Of a stretch of 64,000 nt of DNA, positions 11,788 through 26,499 are shown piece by piece. The notes beneath the pieces are model-generated. The model saw only the letters and a list, made by a program, of their open reading frames with translations. It was not told the DNA's origin and ran no database searches. This stretch comes from Mesorhizobium sophorae (lineage in GTDB: Bacteria > Pseudomonadota > Alphaproteobacteria > Rhizobiales > Rhizobiaceae), in the NCBI RefSeq assembly GCF_002270415.1, contig NZ_NNRI01000007.1:496001-560000 (forward strand). Reading direction: 5' to 3'. The position numbers and the translations under genes are program-made. How positions within the stretch are numbered: the first letter of the stretch is position 1; every line of letters starts with the position of its first letter.

Positions 11788-13119
11788 TCATGCCGCCATT
11801 CTGCCGATCGAGTGATATTCGATGCCGTGGCGGGCGATCACCTTTGGGTCATAGAGGTTGCGGCCATCGAAGATGATCGGCGTGGTCAGCGCATCCTTCA
11901 TCGCGTCGAAGGACGGCGCGCGGAAACTCTTCCATTCGGTGGCGATCAGCAGCGCATCGGCGCCGCGCAGCGCGGCTTCCTTGGTGCCGCACAACAACAG
12001 GTCGTCGCGCAGCCCGTAGATGTGCTGGCATTCCTGCATCGCCTCGGGGTCATAGGCCTGCACTTTGGCGCCGGCGTTCCACAGCGCCTCCATCAGCGTG
12101 CGGGCGGGCGCCTCGCGCATGTCGTCGGTGTTGGGCTTGAAGGCCAGCCCCCACAGCGCAAAGGTCTTGCCCTTGAGATTGCCCTTGAAATAACGATTCA
12201 CCTTGTCGAACAGGACGGATTTCTGCTCGTTGTTGCGCTCCTCGACGGCGCGCAGCAGCTTGGCGTCGAACTTGACGCCTTCGGCGGTCTTGATCAGCGC
12301 GCGCACATCCTTGGGGAAGCACGAGCCGCCATAGCCAAGCCCCGGATAGATGAAGTGGTAGCCGATGCGCGGATCGCTGCCGATGCCCTTGCGGACCTCC
12401 TCGATGTCGGCGCCGAGCTGTTCGGCCAGGTTGGCCATCTCGTTCATGAAGCTGATCTTGGTCGCCAGCATGCAATTGGCGGCGTATTTGGTGAATTCGG
12501 CGCTGCGCACGTCCATCACGATCATCTTCTCGTGGTTGCGGTTGAAGGGAGCGTAGAGCTCGCGCATCACCGCTTCGGTGCCCTCGCTGTCGGTGCCGAC
12601 GATGATGCGGTCGGGCTTCATGCAATCGGCAACCGCGGAACCCTCCTTGAGGAATTCCGGATTCGAAGCGACGTCGAAGGACAGGTCCTCGCGCCCTCTT
12701 TTCTTCAGCGTCTCGGCGACCCTGGCCTTCACCTTTTCGCAGGTGCCGACCGGCACGGTCGACTTGCCGACGATGATCTTGGGGGTGTCCATCTCACGGC
12801 CGATGGTCTCGGCGACCGCCAGCACATATTTGAGATCGGCCGAACCGTCCTCGCCCGGCGGCGTACCAACCGCGATCATCTGGATTTCGCCGTGCCTGAC
12901 CGCGGCCGCTGCGTCGGTGGTGAACTTGATGCGGCCAGCGGCATGGTTCTCCTTGACGAGGCTTTCGAGCCCCGGCTCGAAAATCGGAACGAACCCCTGG
13001 TTGAGCCGCTCGACCTTATTGGCGTCGATGTCGACGCACACCACCTGGTGCCCGACTTCGGCAAGCACCGCTGCCTGCACGAGACCGACATAGCCAATTC
13101 CAAAGACCGTCAAATTCAT
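11788..13119 (-). CDS. ugd: UDP-glucose 6-dehydrogenase
   Basis: 443 residues, normal length. The NAD-binding start [20 protein letters not shown] is followed by [13 protein letters not shown], the substrate loop [12 protein letters not shown] and the catalytic-Cys loop [13 protein letters not shown]. It oxidises UDP-glucose twice to UDP-glucuronate. In S. meliloti this enzyme is RkpK, needed for K-antigen, LPS and galactoglucan. Here it sits between exoK and the GMC gene, so the polymer of this locus may carry glucuronate, unlike classical succinoglycan. That conclusion is inference. Confidence 0.95.
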
Positions 13120-13186: not shown

Positions 13187-14050
13187 CTACTTTATGCTGC
13201 ATGCCAGCGATTCTGGAAACTGACAGGGCTCGCCCAAGGCCGTGAACGCCACGCGATCGATCTGCAGCGTGAGCTTGCGGCCTGGATCGGCGAACTCTCC
13301 CATCCAACCGGTCATCTTGTCGCTGCCCCAAAGGCTGAAGAATATCTTCTGGGCATGCGTCGGCAATTTCGCCGGATCGGTGATCGTGTTGACCAGCTGG
13401 CCGTTGACATACCAGCGCAAGCTATCTTTCTGCCAGACGAAGGCATAGTCGTTGAAGGCCTTGTCGGTGCCGCCCGCCACGTCGACCAGCTTCTCATTGT
13501 TGCCCTTGCCGGCGATGTAGGCGTTGACCTGCACCTTGGAGGTGTCCTTGGTCAGGACCTCGAAGTCGATCTCATCCCAGGGCTGCTTGTCGGACGGTCC
13601 GATATAGGAGAAGAAAGCCGCATTGAGACCGGAGCCGGTGTCGGTCTTTATCCGCGCCTCATAGGTGCCGTAACCGAAGCGCTGCTTGGTCTGGATCTCG
13701 CCGCAGGCGTAGTCGCGGTCCTTCAGCTTCTGCTTTTCGAAGCCGAGCGACAGCACCCCGTCGGACAGCGCGACCAGGCCTTTCGACCAGGTGCAGTTTT
13801 GATGACTGCCGTTCGACCAACCGTCGGAAACATACCAGCGTGCACGATCGAAGCTGGTGAAATCATCGACGAATGAAGGCGACGACTGAATGTCCTGGGC
13901 GAGGGCGGGAGCCGTCACCAAGCTCCCAAGAGCGACGAGCAGCAACGCGCTGATCGCACTCAGCCGCTTGAGGCCGGCTCGTCTGGCCTGGCTTGTGAAC
14001 GGCGTTCCGCCGGTTGCGATGGTGGACGTAGTCTTCGGATTCGAATTCAT
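13187..14050 (-). CDS. exoK: Secreted GH16 endo-glycanase, ExoK-like
   Basis: 287 residues. A basic, hydrophobic N-terminal segment (about 31-51, SAISALLLVALGSLVTAPAL) with AQ at the likely cleavage site marks a secreted protein. The family 16 catalytic motif DEIDFE is at about 159-164, with W158 just before it, and GYGTYEARIKT and GLNAAFFSYIGP precede it as in beta-1,3-1,4-glucanases. In S. meliloti ExoK cleaves nascent succinoglycan to give low-molecular-weight forms active in symbiosis. The mature protein has cysteines at 86 and 116 and two near the C-terminus. It lies 67 bp upstream of ugd on the same strand. Confidence 0.9.
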   Translation of the reverse strand: MNSNPKTTSTIATGGTPFTSQARRAGLKRLSAISALLLVALGSLVTAPALAQDIQSSPSFVDDFTSFDRARWYVSDGWSNGSHQNCTWSKGLVALSDGVLSLGFEKQKLKDRDYACGEIQTKQRFGYGTYEARIKTDTGSGLNAAFFSYIGPSDKQPWDEIDFEVLTKDTSKVQVNAYIAGKGNNEKLVDVAGGTDKAFNDYAFVWQKDSLRWYVNGQLVNTITDPAKLPTHAQKIFFSLWGSDKMTGWMGEFADPGRKLTLQIDRVAFTALGEPCQFPESLACSIK

Positions 14051-14201: not shown

Positions 14202-14606
14202 TCAACCTCTGCCAGCGCCCGCCGGCCTGGTGTACTCGGCGGCAGCGGTGGCCGAATCGGACGCCGCATTCTCGTCGAAGACCGTATCCAGCGAATGACG
14301 GAGTTCTTTCATCATGCCGTTCTGGCGCGACAGCTCCGCGATGCGGCGTTCGCAATTCAGGATCGACGTCGTCAGTGCGCTGACTTCGGACGACCGACGG
14401 TCGGAGGTGGAGCCGTTCTCCATCGCTTCGACCAGGAAAGCGGCGTTGGTCGCCTTCGTCCGATAGCGATTCTCCAACCCGGCTCTCTCGGCCTCGATCT
14501 CGACCGCGATCTGCTCAAACAGCTTTGCCAGGCGATCAAGACGTGAACCATCGGTCTGCCGGTCGCGGGCCGGATCCCTAGATCTGAAACCGAATATCGA
14601 AGCCAT
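14202..14606 (-). CDS. Hypothetical protein, helical, no recognised domain
   Basis: 134 residues, highly charged, with long predicted helical stretches rich in Ala, Glu and Arg (RLDRLAKLFEQIAVEIEAER; LNCERRIAELSRQNGMMKEL) that may form a coiled coil. No signal peptide or membrane segment is seen. I do not recognise a family. It is on the exoK strand with a 151-bp gap to exoK. A TTGCRNTGCA box lies about 160 bp upstream, as for several exo genes, so it may be part of the same regulon. Codon use resembles its neighbours. Confidence 0.6.
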   Translation of the reverse strand: MASIFGFRSRDPARDRQTDGSRLDRLAKLFEQIAVEIEAERAGLENRYRTKATNAAFLVEAMENGSTSDRRSSEVSALTTSILNCERRIAELSRQNGMMKELRHSLDTVFDENAASDSATAAAEYTRPAGAGRG

Positions 14607-14896: not shown

Positions 14897-15919
14897 TCAC
14901 CGCTCCTTGCCGCTGCTTGTGCCTGCCATCAAAAAACGCAATGGCGGCACGTGCTTGTGCCTGGACACAAGGCCGACGCGGCGAAACAGCGCCTCGAGCT
15001 TGTCGGACGCCACGCCCTGGACGATGGGGACGAGGTTGGATTGGCTGGCAAATGCGTAGGCCGCTGCCGATGCCAGCCCGTGCTCGGCCTTGACGTCGAG
15101 GAAATTGCGCAGCCGGTATTTGTCGCGCACGTGCCGCTCGTGCCGTCTCAACACCGCTTTCGAGCCTTCCGGCAGACTGTCGATCGCCAGGAGCGCGAGA
15201 TCGGCATCGGCCAGACGCTTGAGGTCCTGAGTCTTGTGGCGGCCGCTGAGCGAATCGGCACGGACGATGGCGCCGTAGCCACACGAGCGGATGACCTTGA
15301 AGCGCGCGCCGCAGGCGACAGCGCGGGCATAGAGTTCATAGTCCTCGCCGAGCCGCAGGCTCTCGTCATAACGCAACCCATGGCGATCGAGGAAGGCGCG
15401 GCTGATCACCGGCTTGAGGAAGCCCAGTTCGCCCCTTTGCACGCGGCGCCTGGAAATATTGCCTTCGACGAAGCTCTCGAAATCGAGGAATTCCGGATCC
15501 GCGGCGAATTGCGGGGCGACGATTTTCGTCGCGTCGCCGGTTGCATCATCCCTGATGAGCATGATGTTGTCCGCCGCGAAATCCCAGTCGGCGACGGCAA
15601 ACAGGTTGCGAAACCGGCCTTCGAGGAAAAAATCGTCGGCGTCGAGAATGCTGATGAACGGCGATCTCGAACTGGCGATCGCGGCGTTGCGAGCGTAGGA
15701 GGGGCCGCGATTGACATCGAGGCGCATCACCGCAAGCCGGCCGCTGCCGTCGTCGGCGGATCGCGCGACTGCCGCAGTGTCGTCCGTGGAGGCGTCGTCG
15801 ACGACGACGACTTCCGCCACTTCCGGTTCGCGCAACGCGGACGCGATGGCGACGGCGATTGTCGCCGCCGCGTTCTTGGCCGCGATGATCACGCAGACCT
15901 GTGATTTCGTCATCGACAT
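14897..15919 (-). CDS. exoU: Glycosyltransferase family 2, ExoU-like
   Basis: 340 residues from the ATG at 15917-15919 (MSMTKS), with AGAGG six bases upstream; upstream in-frame sequence lacks such a signal. GT-A motifs: VCVIIAAKNAAATIAVAIAS, VVVVDDASTDDT, RGPSYARNAAI and the metal site SILDADDFFLEGRF. It resembles ExoU, which adds the sixth sugar of the succinoglycan repeat, and is also a distant paralogue of the ExoO protein at 1.8 kb (shared GFLKPVISRAFLDRHGLRYD and LGEDYELYARA). It is 89 bp downstream of the nucleotidyltransferase gene on the same strand. The ExoU name rests on recalled similarity and is less certain than the GT2 call. Confidence 0.7.
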   Translation of the reverse strand: MSMTKSQVCVIIAAKNAAATIAVAIASALREPEVAEVVVVDDASTDDTAAVARSADDGSGRLAVMRLDVNRGPSYARNAAIASSRSPFISILDADDFFLEGRFRNLFAVADWDFAADNIMLIRDDATGDATKIVAPQFAADPEFLDFESFVEGNISRRRVQRGELGFLKPVISRAFLDRHGLRYDESLRLGEDYELYARAVACGARFKVIRSCGYGAIVRADSLSGRHKTQDLKRLADADLALLAIDSLPEGSKAVLRRHERHVRDKYRLRNFLDVKAEHGLASAAAYAFASQSNLVPIVQGVASDKLEALFRRVGLVSRHKHVPPLRFLMAGTSSGKER

Positions 15920-16008: not shown

Positions 16009-17139
16009 TCAACGACCGCCCGGCCGTTCAAAGATGCGGCGGCTGATATCGGCGGACGCCGCCCAACCGGCTTCCGCCAGATATCGGACCGGCGCGCGGC
16101 CGCACAGTTCCCACAGCACCGTTCGCCGCTGCGGCCACCGAAGCGACGACAGCCACGGCGCCATGACCATGTTGAGCAGGTCCTCATTGCCGATGCGCGA
16201 CAGGATGCGCGTCGCACGCTCCGACAGCAGCGTGCCGGCACCGCCGAGCAGTACATCGGCTGCGCGTATACCAAGCAGCAGCGTATCGTCCAGTCCCTGC
16301 GCTACCGCGGCATCGAGCACATGCCGCTGGTCCGTCTCGTCGAGGCGGCTGGCGCTGGCGCGCACGTCACAGACATAGCCCGCGCAGGGTTCCCGGTTGA
16401 ACAGTGCCTTGGCGACGCTGATGCAGGACAAAAGCAGCGTGTCGGCGGCCGAGGTGAACGGCACCGTCCCACCGGCGATTTCGACCTGCCGCTTTCGCCG
16501 CAGAAACCCGTCCGCGTCGCGCGGGCTCGGCGAGCCGGGCTGCTGGAGGCGGTAGTGGAGATCTACCGTGGACGGCCTCGGTCCGTCGCCGCGCGTCATA
16601 TGCTGTTCGCCAAGGAAGCGAACCCACCAGACGGAGCGCGACTTGCCGGCGACCTCGTAGCCGATCGAGCGCAGCGCATCCCGCGCTTTGAAATAGCCGA
16701 CCGGCGAAACCAGAATGTCGACATCGCCCGAGGGCTTCATGAAGTGATCGTCGTAGAGAAGCTGCTGCTGGAACGGACCCTTCAGAAAGACGAAATCGAT
16801 CCGGCTTTCGCGCAGCACGTCATGGATCGCCATCGAATCCATGATGCAGGACGCGTTCATCGAAACCGTCCTCCTGCGGTAGCTGTCCAGCCAATGGAAA
16901 AGCTCGGGCGGTCTGTCACTGACAGGCGCGCGCGACAGGGCCTTGAGGACAAAGGTCGCGACCTTGTTCAGCCTGGCGATGTCGGCAACATTGGCACCGC
17001 CTGGGCCGGGCATCGATACGTCGCCAGTAGTGGCTCCTGCCCCGGCGAAATACAACCGCAGGCAGGCCCGCACATAGGCAACCTCGTCGGCACAATCGGC
17101 GGCGCGCAGTCGTTCATAGGAACCATCCGGCAAGGCCAT
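16009..17139 (-). CDS. Nucleotidyltransferase-family protein (NTP_transf_5-like) of the lasso peptide cluster
   Basis: 376 residues. The diagnostic stretch is FVFLKGPFQQQLLYDD (about 116-131) followed by KPSGDVDILVSPVGY, giving the GDVDILV acidic pair of minimal nucleotidyltransferases of the uncharacterised NTP_transf_5 group. STVDLHYRL adds a third acidic position. Such proteins are found beside kinases in some lasso peptide clusters, where they modify the phosphorylated peptide or its phosphate. It is divergent from the lasso operon across a 517-bp region. Its own upstream region carries a TTGCRNTGCA box. It could alternatively act on EPS. Its place next to the lasso precursor favours peptide tailoring (inference). 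Confidence 0.72.
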   Translation of the reverse strand: MALPDGSYERLRAADCADEVAYVRACLRLYFAGAGATTGDVSMPGPGGANVADIARLNKVATFVLKALSRAPVSDRPPELFHWLDSYRRRTVSMNASCIMDSMAIHDVLRESRIDFVFLKGPFQQQLLYDDHFMKPSGDVDILVSPVGYFKARDALRSIGYEVAGKSRSVWWVRFLGEQHMTRGDGPRPSTVDLHYRLQQPGSPSPRDADGFLRRKRQVEIAGGTVPFTSAADTLLLSCISVAKALFNREPCAGYVCDVRASASRLDETDQRHVLDAAVAQGLDDTLLLGIRAADVLLGGAGTLLSERATRILSRIGNEDLLNMVMAPWLSSLRWPQRRTVLWELCGRAPVRYLAEAGWAASADISRRIFERPGGR

Positions 17140-17238
17140 TTAGCGCACAGTCTCCCCAAAAAGCGATTTGCGCGGCGCGTATGCTGCAAATGCGAAGCAA
17201 GCATCACCAAAAACCTTGATGGCGTAAAGCCTTTCCTT

Positions 17239-17248
17239 TTGCAGTGCA
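17239..17248 (+). promoter_or_regulatory. TTGCRNTGCA box upstream of the nucleotidyltransferase gene
   Basis: TTGCAGTGCA lies in TTTTGCAGTGCAGAATTTTG, about 100 bp upstream of the divergent nucleotidyltransferase start. A further half-like TTTTGCAAC follows at 17252-17260. It may also be read on the minus strand as CTGCACTGCA. It belongs to the set of seven boxes in the exo/lasso region. Confidence 0.45.
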
Positions 17249-17380
17249 GAATTTTGCAACCTGAGCGTTTACCGACACTTCTGAAAAGTCGGTCAAAACC
17301 GATGTTGAAATACCGCCCCTACCAAGGCGTTTTCAGCTGGCCTCACCATGGATTTGCCGGCTGAGTTCACCCTATTAGGG

Positions 17381-17503
17381 ATGCCTAAAATAAAGGCACT
17401 TGGCAAATGTTTTATTCAAGCAAAATCAAATGCTTAAAGAATCGGCATCGACATGGTCGCCAAACATAGGGAATCGGTCTAGAAGACGTCATATTTTAGG
17501 CAT
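17381..17503. repeat. 12-bp inverted repeat in AT-rich lasso promoter region
   Basis: ATGCCTAAAATA at 17381-17392 is the exact reverse complement of TATTTTAGGCAT at 17492-17503. The region 17360-17580 is clearly richer in AT than the flanking genes. It also holds shorter inverted repeats, AAGCA/TGCTT near 17418-17435 and GCCTG/CAGGC at 17546-17561. This may be a paired operator, a looping site or a trace of insertion. Nothing else was recognised in the 517-bp gap apart from the boxes and the promoter candidate listed separately. Confidence 0.45.
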
Positions 17504-17561
17504 GACCCACACATAATGTGCTCGCGCAACCTGTAATTGATTAATGCCTGGTAAATCAGGC

Positions 17562-17599
17562 TTGACTCATAAATGCTGCCATGCAGCTATTGCGCTGCA
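17562..17599 (+). promoter_or_regulatory. Candidate promoter and TTGCRNTGCA box of the lasso operon
   Basis: TTGACT at 17562-17567 is a good -35. The -10 at 17-18 bp spacing (AGCTAT or GCTATT) is weak. The box TTGCGCTGCA at 17590-17599 overlaps or follows the -10 and lies about 57 bp upstream of the precursor ATG, a typical place for a repressor operator. A second TGC-rich pair (GCTGCCATGCAGC) lies just before it. Promoter strength and regulator are not shown. Confidence 0.4.
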
Positions 17600-17656
17600 G
17601 CATGCAAGTGCTGACGGCACTCGACAAGCCGTTTCCAGTCCTTATTGGAGAGTAAA

Positions 17657-17809
17657 ATGGAACAGAATGTTGAAAAGCAAGAATACGAGACGCCAAGCCT
17701 GACAGTGCATGGTTCGATCGAAACCATCACCCAGGGCGGCGGCGGCAGCACGGCGATCGACGCGTCTTTCCCCGCGCATACGCCGATCGGCGACCTGACG
17801 TTTTCCTGA
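17657..17809 (+). CDS. Lasso peptide precursor (A protein)
   Basis: 50 residues from the ATG at 17657, with GGAGAG upstream. The leader (1-26, MEQNVEKQEYETPSLTVHGS then IETITQ) has the lasso leader pattern Y10-xx-P13-x-L15-xxx-G19 recognised by B1, and Thr25 at the penultimate leader position required by lasso leader peptidases. The predicted core is 24 residues, Gly27 to Ser50: GGGGSTAIDASF then PAHTPIGDLTFS. Core Gly1 and Asp9 are correctly spaced for a nine-residue macrolactam. The tail has 15 residues with His15 and Phe12 as bulky plug candidates. The C-terminal Ser24 is the target position of lasso kinases. B1-B2-C-K-D follow. It is easily missed by gene finders because of its size. Confidence 0.92.
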   Translation: MEQNVEKQEYETPSLTVHGSIETITQGGGGSTAIDASFPAHTPIGDLTFS

Positions 17810-17826
17810 AGCCTATCGCAATTACT

Positions 17827-17892
17827 CCAGAGTGATGACGTTGGGACTCTGGGTTTAAAAAATAAGAGAGTCGGGGGCACTGCCTCCGACTC
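17827..17892 (+). terminator. Tandem hairpins between lasso precursor and processing genes
   Basis: Hairpin 1 pairs CCAGAGT (17827-17833) with ACTCTGG (17846-17852) and is followed by GTTTAAAAAATAAG. Hairpin 2 pairs GAGTCGGGGGC (17868-17878) with GCCTCCGACTC (17882-17892) around a three-base loop, with one G-U pair, followed by CCCTTT. The two lie in the 132-bp gap between precursor and B1. A partial terminator here would give more precursor than enzyme transcript, as is usual for RiPP operons. Strength is untested. Confidence 0.65.
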
Positions 17893-17941
17893 CCCTTTCA
17901 TTGCCTGGAACTGCGAAGCGTAGTGTAAGCGAGGTTTTGGG

Positions 17942-18286
17942 ATGAACTGGAAGCAATCCGGCCAGGAGTTGGCCGACCAGGATTTGGCCGACCGATATTC
18001 AGCCGACCACGTTCGTGTGAGTGCGACCAAGGATGCCGTGGCTTGCGAGTTCGGCGATGGCCTGGCGCTCCTCAATCTGAAATCCAACATCTATTACAGC
18101 CTGAACGGCGTCGGCGCCTTCATCTGGGATTTGATCCAGGAGCCCAGGTCGGTGGCGGAGATCCGCAGCGCCGTGCTTGCGCGCTACAATGTCGACCCGG
18201 AGCGCTGCCAGGCCGACGTCGAGGCACTGCTGAAGGGCCTGGCCGATAACGGGCTTGCGAGGCTTGATCATGAGGAACTTGTCTAA
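17942..18286 (+). CDS. Lasso peptide RRE protein, PqqD-like (B1)
   Basis: 114 residues from the ATG at 17942 with GAGG seven bases upstream. The PqqD-like RiPP recognition element covers about residues 24-110: VRVSATKDAVACEFGDGLAL, LLNLKSNIYYSLNGVGAFIW and a C-terminal helical part ending GLADNGLARLD. In lasso pathways B1 binds the leader through the YxxPxL motif, present in the precursor, and presents it to B2. About 20 polar N-terminal residues with a repeated LAD pattern (ELADQDLADRYSAD) precede the domain. It overlaps B2 by 17 bp. A stand-alone B1 with separate B2 is the usual split arrangement outside McjB-type enterobacterial clusters. Confidence 0.9.
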   Translation: MNWKQSGQELADQDLADRYSADHVRVSATKDAVACEFGDGLALLNLKSNIYYSLNGVGAFIWDLIQEPRSVAEIRSAVLARYNVDPERCQADVEALLKGLADNGLARLDHEELV

Positions 18287-18788
18287 GCAGGTTCCGCACA
18301 AGGCCATGGTTTTGCGGCAGGAACCCGCGACCGAAAGGAGCCCCAGACAGAGAAAGCGCCGGCAAGGCCGACGAAGCCTGTTTGGGATTCTCTCCCTGAG
18401 CGGCTCGGAAATGATCTTCCTCGGCCGCTGCCTGCTGGTGGTCGCGGCGGTTCGGCTGGGGTTGACACTGTTGTCCTACAACCGTGTTCGCAGCCTGGTG
18501 ACGCGGCTCGACGCGACACAGTGCGCCAGCATGGGCGAACTGCGGCGCGTCGCCTGGGGAGTTGCCGCAGCGGCCCGTTTCGTTCCCAACGCCACGTGCC
18601 TGACCCAGGCGCTTTCGGGTCAATACATGCTTGCTCGACAGGGCAATGCCTCGAAGATACGCATCGGCATCGAGCGCGGCACGGGCGAGCAACTCAAGGC
18701 GCATGCCTGGCTGGTCAGCGACAATCATATCGTGCTTGGCGGATCGATCGACGGTTTCGCCCATCTGGTCGACCACGGCAGCCGATGA
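18270..18788 (+). CDS. Lasso leader peptidase, transglutaminase-like (B2)
   Basis: 172 residues from the ATG at 18270, with GAGG upstream; the frame starts within the end of B1. The transglutaminase-like cysteine protease core shows NATCLTQALSGQYML with catalytic Cys110, AHAWLVSDN with His145, and a following Asp (probably 151). A hydrophobic stretch near 55-70 (LLVVAAVRLGLTLLSY) is usual in B2 proteins. It should cut the precursor after Gln26, freeing Gly1 for ring closure, with ATP use normally coupled to the B1/B2/C complex. The basic N-terminal 35 residues (RSPRQRKRRQGRR) are unusual. It overlaps C by ATGA. Confidence 0.9.
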   Translation: MRNLSKQVPHKAMVLRQEPATERSPRQRKRRQGRRSLFGILSLSGSEMIFLGRCLLVVAAVRLGLTLLSYNRVRSLVTRLDATQCASMGELRRVAWGVAAAARFVPNATCLTQALSGQYMLARQGNASKIRIGIERGTGEQLKAHAWLVSDNHIVLGGSIDGFAHLVDHGSR

Positions 18789-20728
18789 GCGGCGTGGCCG
18801 GAATCCTGCTTCGACAGGGGCACGCGGCAGCGGCCCGGGGGCCCGCCCCAGCGGTCGCGGCGGCCGATATCCAGCAGATGCTGGCGCGCATGCGCCATCG
18901 TGGCCCAGATGGAAATTCGTGGTGGCTGGACACCGGCATCGCGCTTGGCCACGCCTGGCTCAACACCACCGATGACGCCGGCCCCGGTCCGTTGACGATG
19001 GCCGACGGCAAGCTCGCCATCACCGCCGATTGCCGGCTGGACAACCGCGACGAGCTGCTGGCCAGGCTTGGCATCCGCGACAGATCGGTCGCCGATGCGA
19101 CCCTGCTGATGCGGGCCTATCTGCGTTGGGGCGAAGCCTGCCCCGTGCATCTGCAAGGCGATTTCGCCTTCGCCATCTGGGATGCCGAGCGGCAGCTGCT
19201 GTTTTGCGCGCGCGACCATTTCGGGGTCAAGCCGTTCTACTACCATGCGGCGGATCGGCGTTTTGCCTTTGCCTCGGAGATCGGGCCGATCTTGGGCGTC
19301 GAGGGGGTTGGCGGACATGTCAGCGAGCACCAGATCTCGGGGTTTTTGGCCGGGCTTCCCGATGATCCGCAGGCGACACCCTACAGCGACATCTTCAGCT
19401 TGCCGGCGCGCCACAGCCTAACCGTCACCGGCCAACAAGTGGTGCTGCGCCGTTACTGGCAGATCGAGCCGTCGCAACGACCGATAGGGTCGGATGTGCC
19501 TGAGGAATTCGCCCATCTGTTCTCGCAATCGGTGCGCAATCGCATGCGCGGAACCTCGGCGGTCGGCGCGATGCTGAGCGGCGGCCTCGATTCCTCCTCG
19601 ATCGCCTGTGTCGCCGGCCTGCAGAACGCCGCCGAGCGCAAGCCGAGGCTGCCCACCTTCTCGCTAATTTTCGAAAAGGGCTCGTCGATGGACGAGCGCC
19701 CGTTCATCGATGCCGTGCTGGATCAGCAAAAGGTCGACGGAACGCTCATTCCAGTCGGCAACTATGCGCCATTCGCCGAGTTCGAACGGGTGCTGGAAGA
19801 GCAGGAAGGGACGTTCCTGGCGCCGGGCCTGACGCTGACCCGCGGCATCTACCGGACTGCCGGCGCCAAGGGCATCAAGGTGCTGCTGGACGGCCATGGC
19901 GGCGACGAGGTCGTTTCACAAGGTCATGGCCATCTGCATGAGCTTGCCAACGCCGGCAGATGGATGGATTTGTGGCGTGAGATCCGCAGCGCCTCCGACA
20001 CCTATGGCGACAGCACGCTGGGCCTGTATTTCCAGTTCCTGACCCTCTACGGACCGGCCTGGCGGATCGCGAAGCTGAGACATTTGGCAAATCGCGTCCT
20101 GAACAGGATACGCAGACCGGCGCAGGCGCCGCGCGGCCGCGGCTGGCGCGACCTGATCAATCCCGATCTGGCCAGGCGCACCGAGCTTGTCGACCGATTT
20201 CACCGGGCCGGATATATGCCGCCCGGCGTCCAGGCCAGCGACGCCTTGAGCCATCGCTGGATCCTGTCGAATGGCTATGTCGCGCATGCTTTCGAGGTTC
20301 TCGACAAGGCCGCGGCCAATTTCGGCGTCGAGCCGCGCTATCCGTTCTGGGACAAGCCGCTGGTCGAGTTCTGCCTCGGCCTGCCCGGTGAGGAAAAGCT
20401 CAGCCACGGCTTTGGTCGCTATGTGCTGCGTCGCGCCATGGAAGGCGTGCTGCCGACAGCGGTTCAGTGGCGGCGCGACAAGATCGACTTCACCGCCAAT
20501 CTCGTCAACGGCATGCTGCGCAACCACCGCGACCTCCTGGAACAGCTGCTGATCTCGGATGCGAGCCGCATCGCGCCCTACGTCAATCTCCCCCAGGTGA
20601 GTGCTGCCTATGCGCGGCTGCTGCGCCAGCCCGATCGGGCGGCGCCTTTGGATGTCCAGTATGTCTGGCGCTCGGCATCGCTGTCGCTCTGGCTGCGGCA
20701 GCTCCAGCGCAGCGGGAGCCCCGCATGA
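18785..20728 (+). CDS. Lasso cyclase, asparagine-synthetase-like (C)
   Basis: 647 residues from the ATG at 18785, which overlaps the B2 stop. It has an N-terminal glutaminase-like fold (MRHRGPDG, DCRLDNRDELL, GDFAFAIWD, CARDHFGVKPFYY) and a C-terminal synthetase domain with the PP-loop motif SGGLDSSS at 265-272 and LLDGHGGDEVVSQGH further on. Residue 2 is Ser (MSGVAG), not the nucleophilic Cys of true glutamine-dependent enzymes, so no glutamine hydrolysis is expected. The enzyme should adenylate core Asp9 and form the isopeptide bond with Gly1. It is followed by K with an ATGA overlap. Context makes ordinary asparagine synthetase unlikely. Confidence 0.9.
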   Translation: MSGVAGILLRQGHAAAARGPAPAVAAADIQQMLARMRHRGPDGNSWWLDTGIALGHAWLNTTDDAGPGPLTMADGKLAITADCRLDNRDELLARLGIRDRSVADATLLMRAYLRWGEACPVHLQGDFAFAIWDAERQLLFCARDHFGVKPFYYHAADRRFAFASEIGPILGVEGVGGHVSEHQISGFLAGLPDDPQATPYSDIFSLPARHSLTVTGQQVVLRRYWQIEPSQRPIGSDVPEEFAHLFSQSVRNRMRGTSAVGAMLSGGLDSSSIACVAGLQNAAERKPRLPTFSLIFEKGSSMDERPFIDAVLDQQKVDGTLIPVGNYAPFAEFERVLEEQEGTFLAPGLTLTRGIYRTAGAKGIKVLLDGHGGDEVVSQGHGHLHELANAGRWMDLWREIRSASDTYGDSTLGLYFQFLTLYGPAWRIAKLRHLANRVLNRIRRPAQAPRGRGWRDLINPDLARRTELVDRFHRAGYMPPGVQASDALSHRWILSNGYVAHAFEVLDKAAANFGVEPRYPFWDKPLVEFCLGLPGEEKLSHGFGRYVLRRAMEGVLPTAVQWRRDKIDFTANLVNGMLRNHRDLLEQLLISDASRIAPYVNLPQVSAAYARLLRQPDRAAPLDVQYVWRSASLSLWLRQLQRSGSPA

Positions 20729-21726
20729 TGCCGCGCAACGAGCCGCTCGCCGCATACAGTGATCATCCCCGCCCGCATGGCCGGACCGCGAGAGAGCGCC
20801 GCTTCTACCGCGCCTATGGCCTGACCATCGCGTCCGAGGTGACGTTGCCCGAACTGGAGCCGGCGGCGCCTGGGGCGGCGGATGTAGTGATCGCCGTCGG
20901 CCCGATCGACCTGCCAAAACCCAGCTTGGAAGCCGCGACCGAGTTTCGCTTCGAGGCGGACCAGCAATACCTCGCATGGCAGGCGGTCGGCGCATTCCTT
21001 ATCAGCGATGGCTGCCGCATCGACGTCGAGCCGGCGCCCGGCGTCGACGACATGCTGATCGCGTTTCCGCTGCTGGGTCCGGTGATGGCGCTGCTGCTGC
21101 ACCGGCGCGGCCTGCTCGTCCTGCACGCCAGTGCCATTGCGGTTGCTGGTACAAGCGCCATCTTCATGGGCGACAAGGGCGCCGGCAAGTCGACGACGGC
21201 AAGCGCGATGATCCGGGCCGGACATGACCTGCTTACCGATGACGTGGTGGCGCTGGATCTGGCCAATCCGGGTGAGCCGATGATCGTTCCGGGTTTTCCG
21301 CAGATCAAGCTGGCAGCCGATGCCGCGGCGGCGATCTCGCTCGGAGAAACCGAGGTGCGACCGCAAGTGCATCCGGCAATCGACAAGATGCAGCATCGCC
21401 TGAATGGTGCCTTTTCCGCCAACAGGGTGCCTGCGACCAGGATCTATATCCTCGAGCGCGGCGAAAAGGCCGCCATCACGCCGTTGCCCGGCATCGCCGC
21501 CCTGCCGGCCATCATCAAATTCTCCTATGTGACGCGGTTCGGCCGCGCGGCTCTGCCCAGCGATCTTGCAGAAGTGCATCTTCGCCAATGCGCGCGGCTG
21601 GTTGACCATGTCGGCGTTCGCCGCCTCGAAGTCCCGACGGGCCTCGACAGGATCGGTGAGGCCGTGGACCTGATCGAAAGGGATCTGGCGGCCGGGGATC
21701 TGACACCAGGTCGTTGGCGGCCGTGA
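20725..21726 (+). CDS. HprK-like kinase of the lasso peptide cluster (K)
   Basis: 333 residues from the ATG at 20725, overlapping the cyclase stop; ATG at 20728 is the next option. The C-terminal half has the HprK-like P-loop MGDKGAGKSTTASAM (about 148-162), preceded by LVLHASAIAV and followed by LLTDDVVALD, the acidic region equivalent to the HPr kinase catalytic Asp pair. The N-terminal half (YGLTIASEVTLPELEP) is the usual extra domain of the RiPP-linked kinases. In paeninodin-type clusters such a kinase phosphorylates the C-terminal Ser of the lasso precursor. Here the precursor ends in Ser. Alternative roles in sensing cannot be excluded. Confidence 0.85.
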   Translation: MMPRNEPLAAYSDHPRPHGRTARERRFYRAYGLTIASEVTLPELEPAAPGAADVVIAVGPIDLPKPSLEAATEFRFEADQQYLAWQAVGAFLISDGCRIDVEPAPGVDDMLIAFPLLGPVMALLLHRRGLLVLHASAIAVAGTSAIFMGDKGAGKSTTASAMIRAGHDLLTDDVVALDLANPGEPMIVPGFPQIKLAADAAAAISLGETEVRPQVHPAIDKMQHRLNGAFSANRVPATRIYILERGEKAAITPLPGIAALPAIIKFSYVTRFGRAALPSDLAEVHLRQCARLVDHVGVRRLEVPTGLDRIGEAVDLIERDLAAGDLTPGRWRP

Positions 21727-23579
21727 GCGCAATTATGTCGAAGTCCTCAATCCTTCGCCTGTCTCTGTTTCGAGACGTTGCCGCATTCGGCGCCGCCATT
21801 GCCCAGATCGGCGGTCGGCGAACCTGGACGGCGCTGCTCTTCCTGATCCTCGGCAGCCTGACCGAAGGCATCTCCATCCTGCTGCTGGTGCCGCTGCTGC
21901 ATCTGGTCGGACGCCCCGACCAGGATTTTGCGGTCAAGCTGCCGAACAATGATTTCATACGCTGGCTGGTGCCGGACGGAACGCTGCAACTGACGACCGT
22001 GCTTTGCGTGCTGGTCGGGCTTGTTGCCGTGCAGGCGGCGTTCAACCGCTTCAAGTCAGTCTACATGGCCAAACTGCTGTTCGATTTCATCAACCGCGTG
22101 CGCATGAATCTGTTCGAGAGCATCGGCAAGGCGCGCTGGGGCGTCTTCACGCGCATGCGCAGTTCCGATCTCGACCATGCCCTGACCGGCGATATCGACC
22201 GCGTCCAGGGCGCTGCCTTCTCGCTGTTGATGCTGGTGCAGATCGCCGTGCTTCTGGCCGGCTATCTGCTGGTTTCGGTGTTCATCTCGCCGGTGATGAC
22301 GCTGTTTGCGGTCATTATCGGCATCGTGATGTTCGTGGCGCTGCAGCCGTTTCGATCGCGGGCCACCGCCTTTGGCCGGGTTCTGACCGCCAATCGCCAG
22401 GATCAGTACCGGACGGTTTCGGAATTCCTCGGCGGCATCAAGGTGGCCAAGAGCCTGAATGTCGAGGCGACCTATTTCGCACAGTTGCAAGCGACGCTCG
22501 AGAAGATGAAGGCCGACAATGTCGACTATGTGCGCAACAGCACGATCGGCACCGCGGTGTTCCAGGTGGCGAGCGTCGTTGGCTTGAGCCTGTTCATCTA
22601 TGTGGCACTGGTCCGCTTCAACCTGTCGCTGGCCGAGATCGTCGTCCTGCTGCTGGTTTTCATGCGCATCGCGCCGCGCTTCATGGACATGCAGACGCAG
22701 GCCCAGCAGGTCTTGATCAATCTGCCCGCCTATACGGCGATGCGCGGCATGCAGGCGCGTTTCGACGCCGAACGCGAACCGAGCGATGCCGAAACCAGCG
22801 AAGGCGGCAAGCTGTCTCTGGCAACCGGCCTCAACATCAGGGACGTCTGTTTCGGCTATGGCGACGACCCGGCCAAGATGGTCGTCAGGGACATCACCTT
22901 CGGCCTGCCGGCCGGCAAGGTTACCGCGCTGATCGGCCCCTCCGGCTCGGGCAAGAGCACGATCGCCGACATGCTGCTCGGCCTGCTCGAGCCGACCGCC
23001 GGCACGATGCTCGTCGATGGCGTCGAGATCGATGCCGGCAACCGTCGCCGCTGGCGCGATCAGGTGGCCTATGTGCCGCAGGACGTGTTCCTGCTGCATG
23101 ACACGATCGCGGCGAACCTGCGCCTTGCCGCGCCGCAAGCCAGCGATGACGATCTGTGGACCGCGCTGCGCTCGGCGCACGCCGGCGAATTCGTCGAACG
23201 GCTCGACATCGGGCTCGAGACGGTGGTCGGCGACCGCGGCGTGCGGCTTTCGGGCGGCGAACGCCAGCGCATTGCGCTTGCGCGCGCGCTGCTGCGCAAG
23301 CCGTCCCTGCTCATCCTGGACGAGGCCACCAGCGCGCTCGACTGGCAGAGCCAGTCGCTGATCGCCCAGTCGATTGACGGATTGCGCGGCACCATGACGA
23401 TCCTGACCATCGCGCACCGGCCGTCGATGATCGCCTTCGCCGACTGGGTGGTGGCGATGGAAAACGGCCGGGTCGTCGAAGTCGGACAATATCAGCGGCT
23501 GAAGGAAAAAGCCGGCAGCCGATTGTCGCGAATGCTTTTGGGCGAACAGTCCGAGAGCCAGCCCGCTAACGTCGCGTGA
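21723..23579 (+). CDS. ABC transporter, fused permease-ATPase, lasso peptide exporter (D)
   Basis: About 618 residues from a GTG at 21723 that overlaps the kinase stop (GTGA); the ATG at 21735 is an alternative. The N-terminal half has about six membrane helices (LLFLILGSLTEGISILLLVP; VLLAGYLLVSVFISPVMTLF; VVGLSLFIYVALV). The ATPase part has Walker A GPSGSGKST at about 405-413, Q-loop VAYVPQDVF, signature LSGGERQR and Walker B LLILDEATSALD. It is a type I homodimeric exporter without a peptidase domain. As the last gene of the lasso operon it should export the mature peptide and give self-protection. An EPS role is less likely given the operon. Confidence 0.85.
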   Translation: MSAIMSKSSILRLSLFRDVAAFGAAIAQIGGRRTWTALLFLILGSLTEGISILLLVPLLHLVGRPDQDFAVKLPNNDFIRWLVPDGTLQLTTVLCVLVGLVAVQAAFNRFKSVYMAKLLFDFINRVRMNLFESIGKARWGVFTRMRSSDLDHALTGDIDRVQGAAFSLLMLVQIAVLLAGYLLVSVFISPVMTLFAVIIGIVMFVALQPFRSRATAFGRVLTANRQDQYRTVSEFLGGIKVAKSLNVEATYFAQLQATLEKMKADNVDYVRNSTIGTAVFQVASVVGLSLFIYVALVRFNLSLAEIVVLLLVFMRIAPRFMDMQTQAQQVLINLPAYTAMRGMQARFDAEREPSDAETSEGGKLSLATGLNIRDVCFGYGDDPAKMVVRDITFGLPAGKVTALIGPSGSGKSTIADMLLGLLEPTAGTMLVDGVEIDAGNRRRWRDQVAYVPQDVFLLHDTIAANLRLAAPQASDDDLWTALRSAHAGEFVERLDIGLETVVGDRGVRLSGGERQRIALARALLRKPSLLILDEATSALDWQSQSLIAQSIDGLRGTMTILTIAHRPSMIAFADWVVAMENGRVVEVGQYQRLKEKAGSRLSRMLLGEQSESQPANVA

Positions 23580-23596: not shown

Positions 23597-23872
23597 TTAG
23601 TGCAGGCTTCGCCTGGCGCTGCCCAGCTTCTCGCCTTCGGCCACCTCGGGCGCATTCAGCTTTCTCTCCGCGTCGCGAGCCATGTCGGCCGGCGTCGGCG
23701 GGCTCCGGGCGATCATGGCATAGACGAGCACGAAGTAGCCCGCCTGAATGATAATTGCGCAGATGATGACGCGGATCAGCGTCGTACCGATCGAAGCGCC
23801 GCCTAGCCAGGACCAGGCAACGACGATTGAAAGAGCGAAAATCATCCCGACGATGAATTTTGGAAGTGCCAT
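23597..23872 (-). CDS. exoX: Exopolysaccharide production repressor, ExoX/SyrA-like
   Basis: 91 residues from the ATG at 23870-23872; longer starts would add a polar stretch not seen in the family. Two hydrophobic segments: FIVGMIFALSIVVAWSWLG near the start, and TLIRVIICAIIIQAGYFVLV, with the typical GASIGTTLI between them. This is the ExoX/SyrA/Psi group of small inner-membrane proteins that lower EPS synthesis, thought to act on the ExoY galactosyltransferase. It is divergent from exoY across a 601-bp gap, so exoX and exoY expression could be balanced against each other. It ends 17 bp from the lasso exporter, convergent. Confidence 0.82.
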   Translation of the reverse strand: MALPKFIVGMIFALSIVVAWSWLGGASIGTTLIRVIICAIIIQAGYFVLVYAMIARSPPTPADMARDAERKLNAPEVAEGEKLGSARRSLH

Positions 23873-24473
23873 ACCCAACAGCCCATAAACCGGCTCGGGT
23901 CTATATAACGATTGCCCCACCCGAGCGCCGTCCCTTGTCATGCGGGCTTGTTAAGGTCGCCCGCTCTCGGCCGGTTGCTTCCGGCCTTTTCTACCTGTCG
24001 CCACTCTGACAGGTATAATTTGCAATTCTATTAAGGCGAGCAGTAGGCGGCAAGGGCAACTCCGGATATTTTTGATTGAGCTTTTGCGATCGATTCGGCC
24101 ATGCTGCAACGCACGCAAAGGGATTTGAACCGACCTCGAATGGTCGCCATTCTTGAGTAAAAGAAACAATATTAAGTAGTATTTTACAGGATTTGCCTTG
24201 AGTATCGAGCTCTTCTGAAGCACTATTGTGCTCCATGCCTTACCCCATAGGACAGCCCGCCTAAGAACCGCCCCAAAAAGGCCCTTATTTTTCGAGGTTT
24301 GCCCATTTATTGTCACAAATGTGCTAAATATCCCGAAATTTGTGCATGGCTAGCTTATTATTTAGTCAATTCATGACGCGACTATTTCAACCGGTTGGTA
24401 AATTGTGTGTTGCGCTGCAACATTTTTTTGGTATCTTGCGGCGAACCATTCGTTCACGCATGGAGTTTACGGC
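23873..24473. other. 601-bp AT-rich regulatory region between exoX and exoY
   Basis: No convincing gene was found. The middle part (about 24000-24370) is much richer in AT than the neighbouring genes, a feature of targets of MucR/Ros-type regulators in rhizobia (known of the group; no specific site claimed). TATATA on the minus strand at 23902-23907 is a possible -10 for exoX. The exoY-proximal box is listed separately. Confidence 0.5.
24406..24437 (+). promoter_or_regulatory. exoY promoter candidate with TTGCRNTGCA box
   Basis: The box TTGCGCTGCA (24410-24419) lies in GTGTTGCGCTGCAACA, a near-perfect palindrome around the TTGC/GCAA arms. TTGCGC as -35 and TATCTT (24432-24437) as -10 have 16-bp spacing and end 36 bp before the exoY ATG. 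A protein on the box would block this promoter. It is the most symmetric of the seven sites. Confidence 0.55.
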
Positions 24474-25151
24474 ATGAGGGACGTTGCCAAGTCGGCCACA
24501 GCGGGCTTTTCGCAGGTCGACATCGATTTTCCGCCGCCGATCGGCGGCCTGCTCAAACGCAGCTTCGATATCACCGGATCACTGATTGGCTTGATCGCTC
24601 TCAGCCCGCTGTTTGTTATGATCGCTCTGCTCGTCAAACTTTCCGACGGCGGATCGATTTTCTACGGCCACAGGCGAATCGGACGCGGGGGACGGATTTT
24701 TCCGTGCCTGAAGTTCCGCACCATGGTTCCCGATGGCGACAAGGTGCTGGCCGCCTATCTCGCAACCAACCCGGACGCCAACGCGGAATGGGTGGCGACC
24801 CGCAAGCTGAAGAGCGATCCGCGCGTCACCCGCGTCGGAGCAGTCTTGAGGAAACTCAGCCTCGATGAGCTGCCGCAGATCATCAACATCCTGCAGGGCG
24901 ACATGAGCCTTGTCGGGCCGCGTCCGGTCGTGCGCGACGAGCTCGAGATCTATGGCACCTCCGCCGTCTACTATCTGAAATCCCGCCCGGGCCTGACCGG
25001 CCTGTGGCAAGTGAGCGGTCGCAACGACGTCTCCTATGACAGCCGCGTCGCCTTCGATCGCCACTATGTCGAGAACTGGTCGCTGTTCGAGGATGTTCGC
25101 ATCATCATCAAGACTGTCCCCGCCGTCTGGATGTCACGCGGTTCTTATTGA
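24474..25151 (+). CDS. exoY: Undecaprenyl-phosphate galactosephosphotransferase, ExoY-like
   Basis: 225 residues from the ATG at 24474, with GGAG eight bases upstream; an earlier in-frame ATG lacks this. One N-terminal membrane segment ([20 protein letters not shown]) precedes the conserved cytoplasmic domain of polyprenol-phosphate hexose-1-phosphate transferases: [49 protein letters not shown] and [16 protein letters not shown]. It starts the repeat unit by placing Gal-1-P on undecaprenyl phosphate. It is the likely control point of the pathway and the presumed target of ExoX. exoF follows after 82 bp. Confidence 0.95.
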
Positions 25152-25233: not shown

Positions 25234-26499
25234 ATGTTTGAAGCCCTTCGCAGCGGCCCGGTTTGCGGCCGGCTGCGAAGGGCGCGTTTGCTGGCCATAT
25301 GCGTTGCCATGTCGCTGGCCATCCCCCACATAGCCACGGCCGACGAGTACCGTCTTGGATCGCAGGACAAGCTCACCATCCGCGTTGCCGAATGGCAGAC
25401 GGTCGAAGGCACATTCCGTGACTGGTCGGCGGTGAATGGCGAATACACGGTTGGGCCTTCCGGCACGCTGTCGGTGCCGTTCGCCGGCGAGCTTCCGGCA
25501 TCCGGCAAGACCACGTCGGAAATCGCGGCGGCGATCGGCCAGGCATTGCAGCGCAAGCTCGCTCTGTCGGACAAGCCCGAAGCCTCCGTCGAAATGGCGC
25601 AGTACCGGCCATTCTACATTTCGGGCGAAGTCCAGAACCCCGGCCAATTTCCCTATGTGCCCGAGCTGACGGTGCTGAAGGCCATCAGTGTCGCCGGTGG
25701 CATCAGGCGAAACGCCGACTACGGCCCGCAGCTCGGCAAGGACCTGGTCACCGCCAAGGGCAATTTCGATATCTCTGACGACCAGCGCATTCGGCTGCTC
25801 GTCAAGCGCGCCCGCATCGACGCCGATATGGCCGGCAAGGCGAGTTTCGAGGTGCCGAAGGAGGCCGAGGCCGATCCCAGATTGCCAGCCATCGTCGCAG
25901 ACGAGATGACGATCCTGACGTCCGACCAAAAGGCGCTGAAGCTGAAGCTTGAGGCGCTCAGCGATCTGAAGGGGGTTCTGCAGTCCGAAATCGAGTCGCT
26001 GCAGAAGAAGATCGTCAACCAGCAGCAGCAGGTCGACCTGGCACAGCAGCAGCTCACCAGCATCGGCCCGCTGGCACAGAAAGGCCTGATCGCCAACGCC
26101 CGGCTGCTCGATTCGCGGCAGTCCGTCGCCGACCTGCAGGGCAAGATCCTGGACTACGAAACGGCCATCCTCACCGCCAAGCAGGCGATCAGCAAGGCGA
26201 CGCAGGACGCCATCGATGCCCAGAACACCTTGAGTTCAAATCTCGCCACCGACCGGCAGCAGACCGAAGCCGACCTCAACGAGGCCGCGCTCAAGGTGAA
26301 TATGCAGAAAGGCCTGATGGCCCAAGCCAGCGATCCCTCGATGAGGTCCGCCAGCGACACCGACCAGCAACCCAGCCTGCTCTACGCACTGGTGCGGGTC
26401 GTCGACGGCAAGAGCAGCGAAATCTCGGCGAAGGAAGATACGCCGGTGCTGCCCGGCGACGTGATCAAGGTCAAGCTGGCGCCGCTGACCAGTCAGTAG
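25234..26499 (+). CDS. exoF: Polysaccharide export protein, OMA/Wza family, ExoF-like
   Basis: 421 residues from the ATG at 25234, the same length as S. meliloti ExoF. A signal peptide (ARLLAICVAMSLAIPHIATA) is followed by the Poly_export motif EYRLGSQDKLTIRVAEWQTV, then a SLBB-like part (FYISGEVQNPGQFPYVPELT, VLKAISVAGGI). A long coiled-coil region follows at about 215-370 (LKLKLEALSDLKGVLQSEIE and SLQKKIVNQQQQVDLAQQQL). It should form the periplasmic/outer-membrane export channel with ExoP. It belongs to an exoY-exoF operon and faces exoQ across a repeat-rich 362-bp gap. Confidence 0.92.
   Translation: MFEALRSGPVCGRLRRARLLAICVAMSLAIPHIATADEYRLGSQDKLTIRVAEWQTVEGTFRDWSAVNGEYTVGPSGTLSVPFAGELPASGKTTSEIAAAIGQALQRKLALSDKPEASVEMAQYRPFYISGEVQNPGQFPYVPELTVLKAISVAGGIRRNADYGPQLGKDLVTAKGNFDISDDQRIRLLVKRARIDADMAGKASFEVPKEAEADPRLPAIVADEMTILTSDQKALKLKLEALSDLKGVLQSEIESLQKKIVNQQQQVDLAQQQLTSIGPLAQKGLIANARLLDSRQSVADLQGKILDYETAILTAKQAISKATQDAIDAQNTLSSNLATDRQQTEADLNEAALKVNMQKGLMAQASDPSMRSASDTDQQPSLLYALVRVVDGKSSEISAKEDTPVLPGDVIKVKLAPLTSQ

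Follow-up and report, generated by a model that had tools for sequence, protein, structure and literature searches.

Lasso peptides phosphorylated at a C-terminal serine have been described together with their HprK-like kinases from Paenibacillus and from one proteobacterium (SyanK), and in pseudomycoidin the nucleotidyltransferase PsmN adds hexoses to the phosphate, according to the reviews PMC9266682 and PMC8498205. The lasso gene cassette analyzed here lies in a stretch of 64,000 nucleotides of the Mesorhizobium sophorae genome (contig NZ_NNRI01000007.1, positions 496,001 to 560,000), which is called the window below. Its seven genes, N and the divergent series A-B1-B2-C-K-D, occupy positions 16009-23579 inside an exopolysaccharide (EPS) locus, where exoX borders them on one side and an exoU-like gene on the other. 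On balance, we think that the complete cassette produces a 24-residue lasso closed between Gly1 and Asp9, which is likely phosphorylated at Ser24, exported, and active in or on the exopolysaccharide layer. This reading rests on the genes and motifs observed, the constant position of the cassette, conservation of the core, the co-inheritance with exo genes, the scars of loss, and the pairing with EPS genes elsewhere.

The cassette resembles the clusters of paeninodin (PadeK) and SyanK/ThcoK, as the reviews describe them, in its HprK-like kinase gene, the Ser that ends the core, and the His-Lys-Asp-Asp residues, but its precursor has little similarity to theirs, a nucleotidyltransferase gene diverges from it, the setting is an exo locus, and the kinase activity is predicted. 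A kinase and a nucleotidyltransferase gene are also shared with the pseudomycoidin cluster (PsmK/PsmN), which is from Bacillus and encodes PsmN within its operon, after B2 and before D, whereas N of the window is divergent from A, is tied to the exoU-like gene, and is likened to PsmN by description, not by sequence. The nucleotidyltransferase belongs to the cluster, as N is kept and lost together with the cassette. Cyanobacterial-type lasso clusters (NF033528, NF033535) are similar in the precursor and cyclase, which score above the cut-offs, in the 24-residue layout and in the kinase gene; they differ in the order B1-B2-C-A-K, in a more distant exporter, and in that exo genes are not nearby. 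Astexin-type alphaproteobacterial clusters carry an isopeptidase and a TonB receptor. Compared with that layout, the window has split B1 and B2, a kinase and an ABC exporter, and a search of the whole genome found no isopeptidase that reached the NF033523 cut-off (best match 20.7 bits versus 400). No TonB receptor was found among the genes of the region, to which that check was confined. Both absences had been noted in a first, sequence-only reading of the window. The exo cluster of M. loti/japonicum, exoQFYXUKTLAMONP (mlr5249-mlr5276), shares the order exoF-exoY-exoX ... exoU-exoK with the window, in which the cassette occupies the X-U junction; the M. loti section of PMC8227245 names no lasso genes there.

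The sequence-only reading had regarded both the location and the set of tailoring genes as undescribed. This was too broad for the tailoring genes: the PadeK/SyanK kinases and PsmN are known, and the Mesorhizobium precursor already carries the NCBI label “lasso peptide” by automatic naming. The chemistry and the enzymes are thus of known kinds, namely phosphorylated lasso peptides and a PsmN-type nucleotidyltransferase. As to the location, the fixed exo-locus place was not found in the open-licence papers searched, nor were the joint loss, the recurrent EPS pairing and the fusion of N to a glycosyltransferase; no Mesorhizobium lasso peptide paper was found among the matches listed. The apparent novelty is that an EPS locus contains, as an integral part, a conserved lasso peptide that is probably not a bacteriocin.

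Gene content of the cassette

The features of the cassette, with their strand and model matches, were as follows.

16009-17139, minus strand: N, nucleotidyltransferase-family protein of 376 residues, divergent from A, predicted tailoring enzyme (PF14907, 6.9e-31)
17536-17656, plus strand: conserved region upstream of A, with a predicted promoter (CTTGAC) and a 5' leader with a possible hairpin
17657-17809, plus strand: A, lasso precursor of 50 residues, with a 26-residue leader and a 24-residue core GGGGSTAIDASFPAHTPIGDLTFS
17868-17892, plus strand: hairpin between A and B1 with an 11-pair stem, possible attenuator or partial terminator
17942-18286, plus strand: B1, PqqD-type leader-binding protein (PF05402, 8.7e-22)
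18270-18788, plus strand: B2, transglutaminase-like leader protease (NF033537, 64.4 bits, cut-off 33)
18785-20728, plus strand: C, asparagine-synthetase-like isopeptide-forming cyclase (NF033535, 781.6 bits, cut-off 525)
20725-21726, plus strand: K, HprK-like kinase predicted to phosphorylate Ser24 (PF07475, 30.8 bits, just below the cut-off of 33.3)
21735-23579, plus strand: D, ABC exporter (PF00005 and PF00664), alternative start TTG 21714

Precursor A scored above the cut-offs of two NCBIfam models, NF033528 “lasso peptide” (39.3 bits, cut-off 33) and the lasso leader model NF033521 (24.6 bits, cut-off 19). The curated models of A, B2 and C and the domains of B1, N and D bore out the sequence-only reading, which had recognized a complete lasso cluster inside a succinoglycan-type exo locus and had placed all genes correctly, including the precursor and the divergent nucleotidyltransferase. 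Its statement that the five downstream genes overlap held for B1/B2 (17 bp), B2/C (4 bp) and C/K (4 bp), whereas an overlap of K with D requires that translation of D begin at TTG 21714 and not at ATG 21735. For B2, a single match was found in the whole genome.

Conservation of the precursor and the enzymes

The ring of a lasso peptide is formed from an N-terminal Gly and an acceptor Asp or Glu at core position 7-9. Gly1 and Asp9 satisfied this rule in 103/103 Mesorhizobium loci (100 stretches of up to 20 kb, two 5-kb loci and the window), and a C-terminal Ser, as in phosphorylated lasso peptides, was present in all of them. Nine core residues were invariant in these loci (Gly1, Asp9, Phe12, Pro13, Thr16, Pro17, Thr22, Phe23 and Ser24). 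The 24-residue core proposed from the window alone was correct. The dN/dS ratio was 0.026 for the leader of A, 0.20 for its core, 0.19 for C and 0.09 for exoY, calculated for each gene from at most 600 sequence pairs, with the rows restricted to those that had a clean extrapolated frame; the rows for these ratios and for the motif counts below numbered 103 for A, 101 for C, 100 for N, 99 for D, 63 for B1, 52 for B2 and 22 for K. The layout was also compared across phyla in 21 cores from Mesorhizobium (5), other Alphaproteobacteria, cyanobacteria and Pyrinomonadaceae, with core starts assigned from the leader motif. Asp9, Phe12 and Thr16 were invariant and Ser24 was present in 20 of these cores; three had no Gly at the start and two extended past Ser24.

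The cyclase C contained the SGGLDS motif, with Ser and not Cys at position 2, in 101/101 genus rows. Walker A of D (99/99), the K-G and D-x-D motif residues of N (100/100) and the His, Lys and Asp-Asp positions of K (22/22) were likewise present in every row, and B2 had the Cys and His in 52/52 rows and the Asp of DGF in 44 of them. Kinase K matched HPr kinase structures at E values of 2e-4 to 5e-4; in the PDB, D matched generic ABC transporters, and sequence searches with N and with B2 gave no match. A predicted model of N showed a nucleotidyltransferase fold in Foldseek. The ribitol-phosphate transferase FKRP reached no better than E 0.07 among the Foldseek matches of N and had no place among the 50 rows of a second look. 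N adjoins the exoU-like gene on the same strand, and in two species of another genus, g148 (genomes G609 and G643), N and an exoU-like family-2 glycosyltransferase (GT2) formed one frame of 745 residues (L251, 6234-8471; L273, 3739-5976).

The region upstream of A was conserved among the 101 loci compared, with TTGACTC in all of them. The consensus fold of the 5' leader was -13.6, compared with a column-shuffle mean of -4.1 (sd 2.3), and none of 100 shuffles was as low. Against the predicted promoter and leader structure, a sigma-70 scan of 16900-18300 gave 0 sites and an Rfam search of the same positions gave 0 matches. The spacer from A to B1 (17805-17945) folded with a z of -4.3, and the A/B1 hairpin had a stem of at least 10 pairs in 67/103 loci. 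A 12-bp inverted repeat was also seen upstream of A in the window, at 17381-17392 (ATGCCTAAAATA) and 17492-17503 (TATTTTAGGCAT); it was not conserved among other strains.

Distribution and loss in Mesorhizobium

The cyclase was found in 103/146 Mesorhizobium genomes, among them the records of M. loti DSM 2626, M. ciceri WSM1271, M. huakuii NBRC 15243 and M. amorphae CCBAU 01570, and the precursor was found in all 103 cassette loci read. The gene-order mining proposed with the sequence-only reading recovered the full order exoK- GT2- N- A+ B1+ B2+ C+ K+ D+ exoX- exoY+ exoF+ in 97/103 loci; the six deviating loci were the two 5-kb loci, two with no exoK match in the stretch, one at a contig end and one with a broken cyclase. 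N was present in 101 loci, the other two being the 5-kb loci, too short to reach it. In genome G019, the cassette was present with an identical core. Chance can be excluded because the precursor stands at the same place in 103/103 loci with low dN/dS. A recent chance insertion in one genome was ruled out by the number of cyclase-bearing genomes and the fixed order, and a decaying cluster in the window by the open frames, the motifs present and the low dN/dS in the genus.

The protein distances of C, D and N followed those of exo genes (Pearson 0.82-0.92, 93 loci), and on a tree of GT2, exoY and exoF (119 rows, L066, L012 and L022 left out), four changes explained the presence and absence of the cassette. 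From the 43 genus genomes with no cyclase, 20 were searched for exoF, 18 matched and 15 were read. In all 15, GT2, exoX, exoY and exoF were adjacent and the genes from N to D were missing as a block. A clear remnant of the 3' end of D was found in six of them (L165, L168 and L171-L174, E 4e-17 to 9e-53) and a weaker one in two more (L170 and L175). These remnants are best read as deletion scars; therefore, losses occurred, most clearly in L165 (genome G053), whose exoY is 98% identical to that of the window. Sequence from upstream of N was retained in eleven of the 15 loci, perhaps because it serves as the exoU promoter. The four loci that had diverged furthest (L176-L179) showed no remnant of N or D. 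Two of the cassette loci, L087 (G050) and L088 (G077), had a broken cyclase gene with the remainder of the cassette recognizable, which is loss in progress.

Pairing with exopolysaccharide genes outside the genus

Searches at the family, order and class levels found the cyclase in 10/394, 12/397 and 2/385 genomes, of which four, five and one, respectively, were outside the genus; the order and class searches were samples of larger groups. The same core type was found in ten further genomes (G211, G315, G331, G415, G609, G643, G849, G1308, G1330 and G1369), and the EPS context was judged in nine of them, the contig of G211 being too short at 4.5 kb. In 9/9 alphaproteobacterial genomes from six genera, the best exoY-like gene of the genome lay 3.5-13.7 kb from the cyclase, and further exo-like genes (exoF, exoK, exoU-like or exoX-like) were near it. 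These nine genomes are not independent trials, because they share ancestry to some degree. In family f6, exoF and exoK directly followed K, and a D-like gene was elsewhere or not seen. A 41.8-kb Paracoccus plasmid carried N, GT2, GH16, a sugar transferase, the precursor, B1, B2, C, K and D with many glycan genes, so EPS and lasso genes travel together on it, and on a Sulfitobacter plasmid a related cluster lay 4.6 kb from an exoY-like gene. A pairing peculiar to Mesorhizobium was ruled out by these other genera and the Paracoccus plasmid. The sequence-only reading had suggested a surface or symbiotic role. The surface role is the best lead with comparative support, whereas the comparison does not show a role specific to symbiosis, since the same pairing occurs on the Paracoccus plasmid, which is from river-bed soil.

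Three other cyclase matches (G755, G761 and G922) had another kind of precursor or none recognized, and neither exoY, exoF, exoK nor an exoU-like gene was near the cyclase in the two with enough flank (the G755 contig is 5.9 kb). K adjoined the cyclase in distant loci too, including 7/7 cyanobacterial and Pyrinomonadaceae loci; in one of these, L253, the neighbors looked like housekeeping genes.

Several observations were made on individual replicons. Positions 1-24884 of the Paracoccus plasmid L295 (NZ_CP067230.1), and L296, are for the most part exopolysaccharide genes, and the lasso cassette lies among them. The Sulfitobacter indolifex plasmid (L293 11685-14144, NZ_CP084955.1) carries a 24-residue-type precursor on each strand, of which one ends with TLS and the other with TTP and no Ser; neither has a gene in the plasmid table. 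A Pyrinomonadaceae metagenome-assembled genome (L257, 12026 and 13176) has two precursor-like open reading frames (ORFs) in one cluster, one of them of the 24-residue type. Plasmid-borne lasso clusters with other precursor types were seen in Antarctobacter (L297, NZ_CP022542.1) and the archaeon Halopiger (L298, NC_015658.1), with a nucleotidyltransferase gene and with glycosyltransferase, flippase or sulfatase genes around them; the polysaccharide link of lasso clusters may thus be wider.

Flanking exo genes of the window

The genes on the two sides of the cassette were as follows.

11788-13119, left flank: nucleotide-sugar (UDP-glucose type) dehydrogenase
13187-14050, minus strand, left flank: exoK, endo-glycanase (NF052392, 446.9 bits, cut-off 350)
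14897-15919, minus strand, left flank: exoU-like GT2 (PF00535, 8e-25), ORF open to TTG 16012
23597-23941, minus strand, right flank: exoX-like gene (NF052519, 42.3 bits, weak and below the cut-off of 140)
24474-25151, plus strand, right flank: exoY-like sugar transferase (PF02397, 1.1e-62)
25234-26499, plus strand, right flank: exoF-like export protein (PF02563 and SLBB)

EPS genes on both sides, as first read from the window, were thus recovered, with exoK passing its own model, exoY and exoF recognized by their domains, and exoX by a weak match. A 134-residue ORF on the minus strand between the exoU-like gene and exoK (14202-14606) had a match in 101/103 loci and no NCBIfam match. The ORFs p26847 and m6015 had no Pfam match and are probably not genes.

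Proposed pathway and alternatives

By analogy with PadeK/SyanK and PsmN, K would phosphorylate the last Ser (Ser24) of the linear precursor, B1 would bind the leader, and B2 would cut after residue 26. The ring would then be closed by C, which would link the Asp9 side chain with the Gly1 amine. A sugar or nucleotide may be added to the phosphate by N, perhaps aided by the ExoU-like glycosyltransferase, and D would export the product, which we infer to act at the surface. The predicted monoisotopic masses were 2257.07 Da for the lasso, 2337.03 with HPO3, and 2499.08 with HPO3 and a hexose. A surface or matrix role is favored over a fast-changing bacteriocin by the conserved core and the EPS pairing.

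Several points weigh against this pathway and role. The product, its phosphate and its sugar are predictions from sequence; the core extends beyond Ser24 in G1369 and Calothrix, and one Sulfitobacter core has no Ser24. The sole compensatory support for the 5' structure is an A-U/G-C change at one hairpin pair, and precursor distances follow exoF weakly (Pearson 0.48). The cassette is dispensable, because 43/146 genus genomes have no cyclase and two have broken copies. In 7/7 cyanobacterial and Pyrinomonadaceae loci with this core type (one of only 9.5 kb), matches to exoY, exoF, exoU-like genes and exoK were lacking nearby, which implies that the peptide can exist with no EPS link, and the linkage may be kept by shared ancestry rather than function.

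It is possible, but rather unlikely, that the peptide is a regulatory signal, free of the polymer, by which EPS synthesis is adjusted or cell density is reported. The cassette adjoins exoX-like and exoY genes, the predicted control point of EPS synthesis (for the role of ExoX, PMC8227245), and the conserved upstream region, the leader hairpin and the conserved core would suit a signal; however, the cassette has no receptor or regulator gene, and exo genes persist in cassette-less strains, so regulation by the peptide cannot be essential. We consider it unlikely that the product is an ordinary secreted lasso bacteriocin that happens to be sited in the exo locus, with linkage due to common descent or a permissive site. 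Bacteriocin clusters typically have such an exporter and a compact operon, a dispensable weapon would fit the patchy loss and its scars, and the cyanobacterial relatives have no EPS link. Nevertheless, the core is under purifying selection in 103 loci and its 24-residue layout is the same across phyla, in contrast to a weapon that changes fast; a separate immunity gene was not recognized; and the EPS pairing is retained despite the changed local order in family f6 and on a plasmid of another order. That N is instead an EPS-modifying enzyme working with ExoU and placed beside A incidentally is improbable: its strand, its adjoining position and the two fusions to an exoU-like enzyme fit this idea, but N was missing along with A-D in 15/15 cassette-less loci and present in 101/103 cassette loci, in Calothrix and Pyrinomonadaceae PF14907-like proteins are encoded after lasso genes at a distance from exo genes, and PsmN is a precedent for a lasso-tailoring nucleotidyltransferase.

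The matrix-associated lasso peptide that we favor also has a bolder form, in which K phosphorylates the terminal Ser, N and an ExoU-type partner link the phosphate to a sugar, and the exopolysaccharide displays the lasso or is capped by it. This form is quite doubtful. We know of no lasso peptide that is a structural or signaling part of a bacterial surface polysaccharide, and if the glycan-anchored form is true, this would be the first and would be located in the exo locus of the model symbiont of Lotus.

Significance for Mesorhizobium

The purpose of phosphorylation and similar changes in lasso peptides is an open question, according to PMC9266682. The present results describe a lasso peptide with a conserved core that has remained linked to exopolysaccharide genes, in Mesorhizobium as well as in several further Alphaproteobacteria. 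Genetics is established in Mesorhizobium strains, and a non-antibiotic function of a lasso peptide is therefore directly testable. According to PMC8227245 and PMC6144797, the plant receptor EPR3 reads the EPS made by the Mesorhizobium exo locus, and symbiosis is impaired in mutants of exoU and exoK; it may be worthwhile to re-examine the exo phenotypes already published. A predicted lasso peptide, little noticed so far, would belong to the bacterial surface system of most of the root-nodule bacteria of the genus Mesorhizobium examined (103/146).

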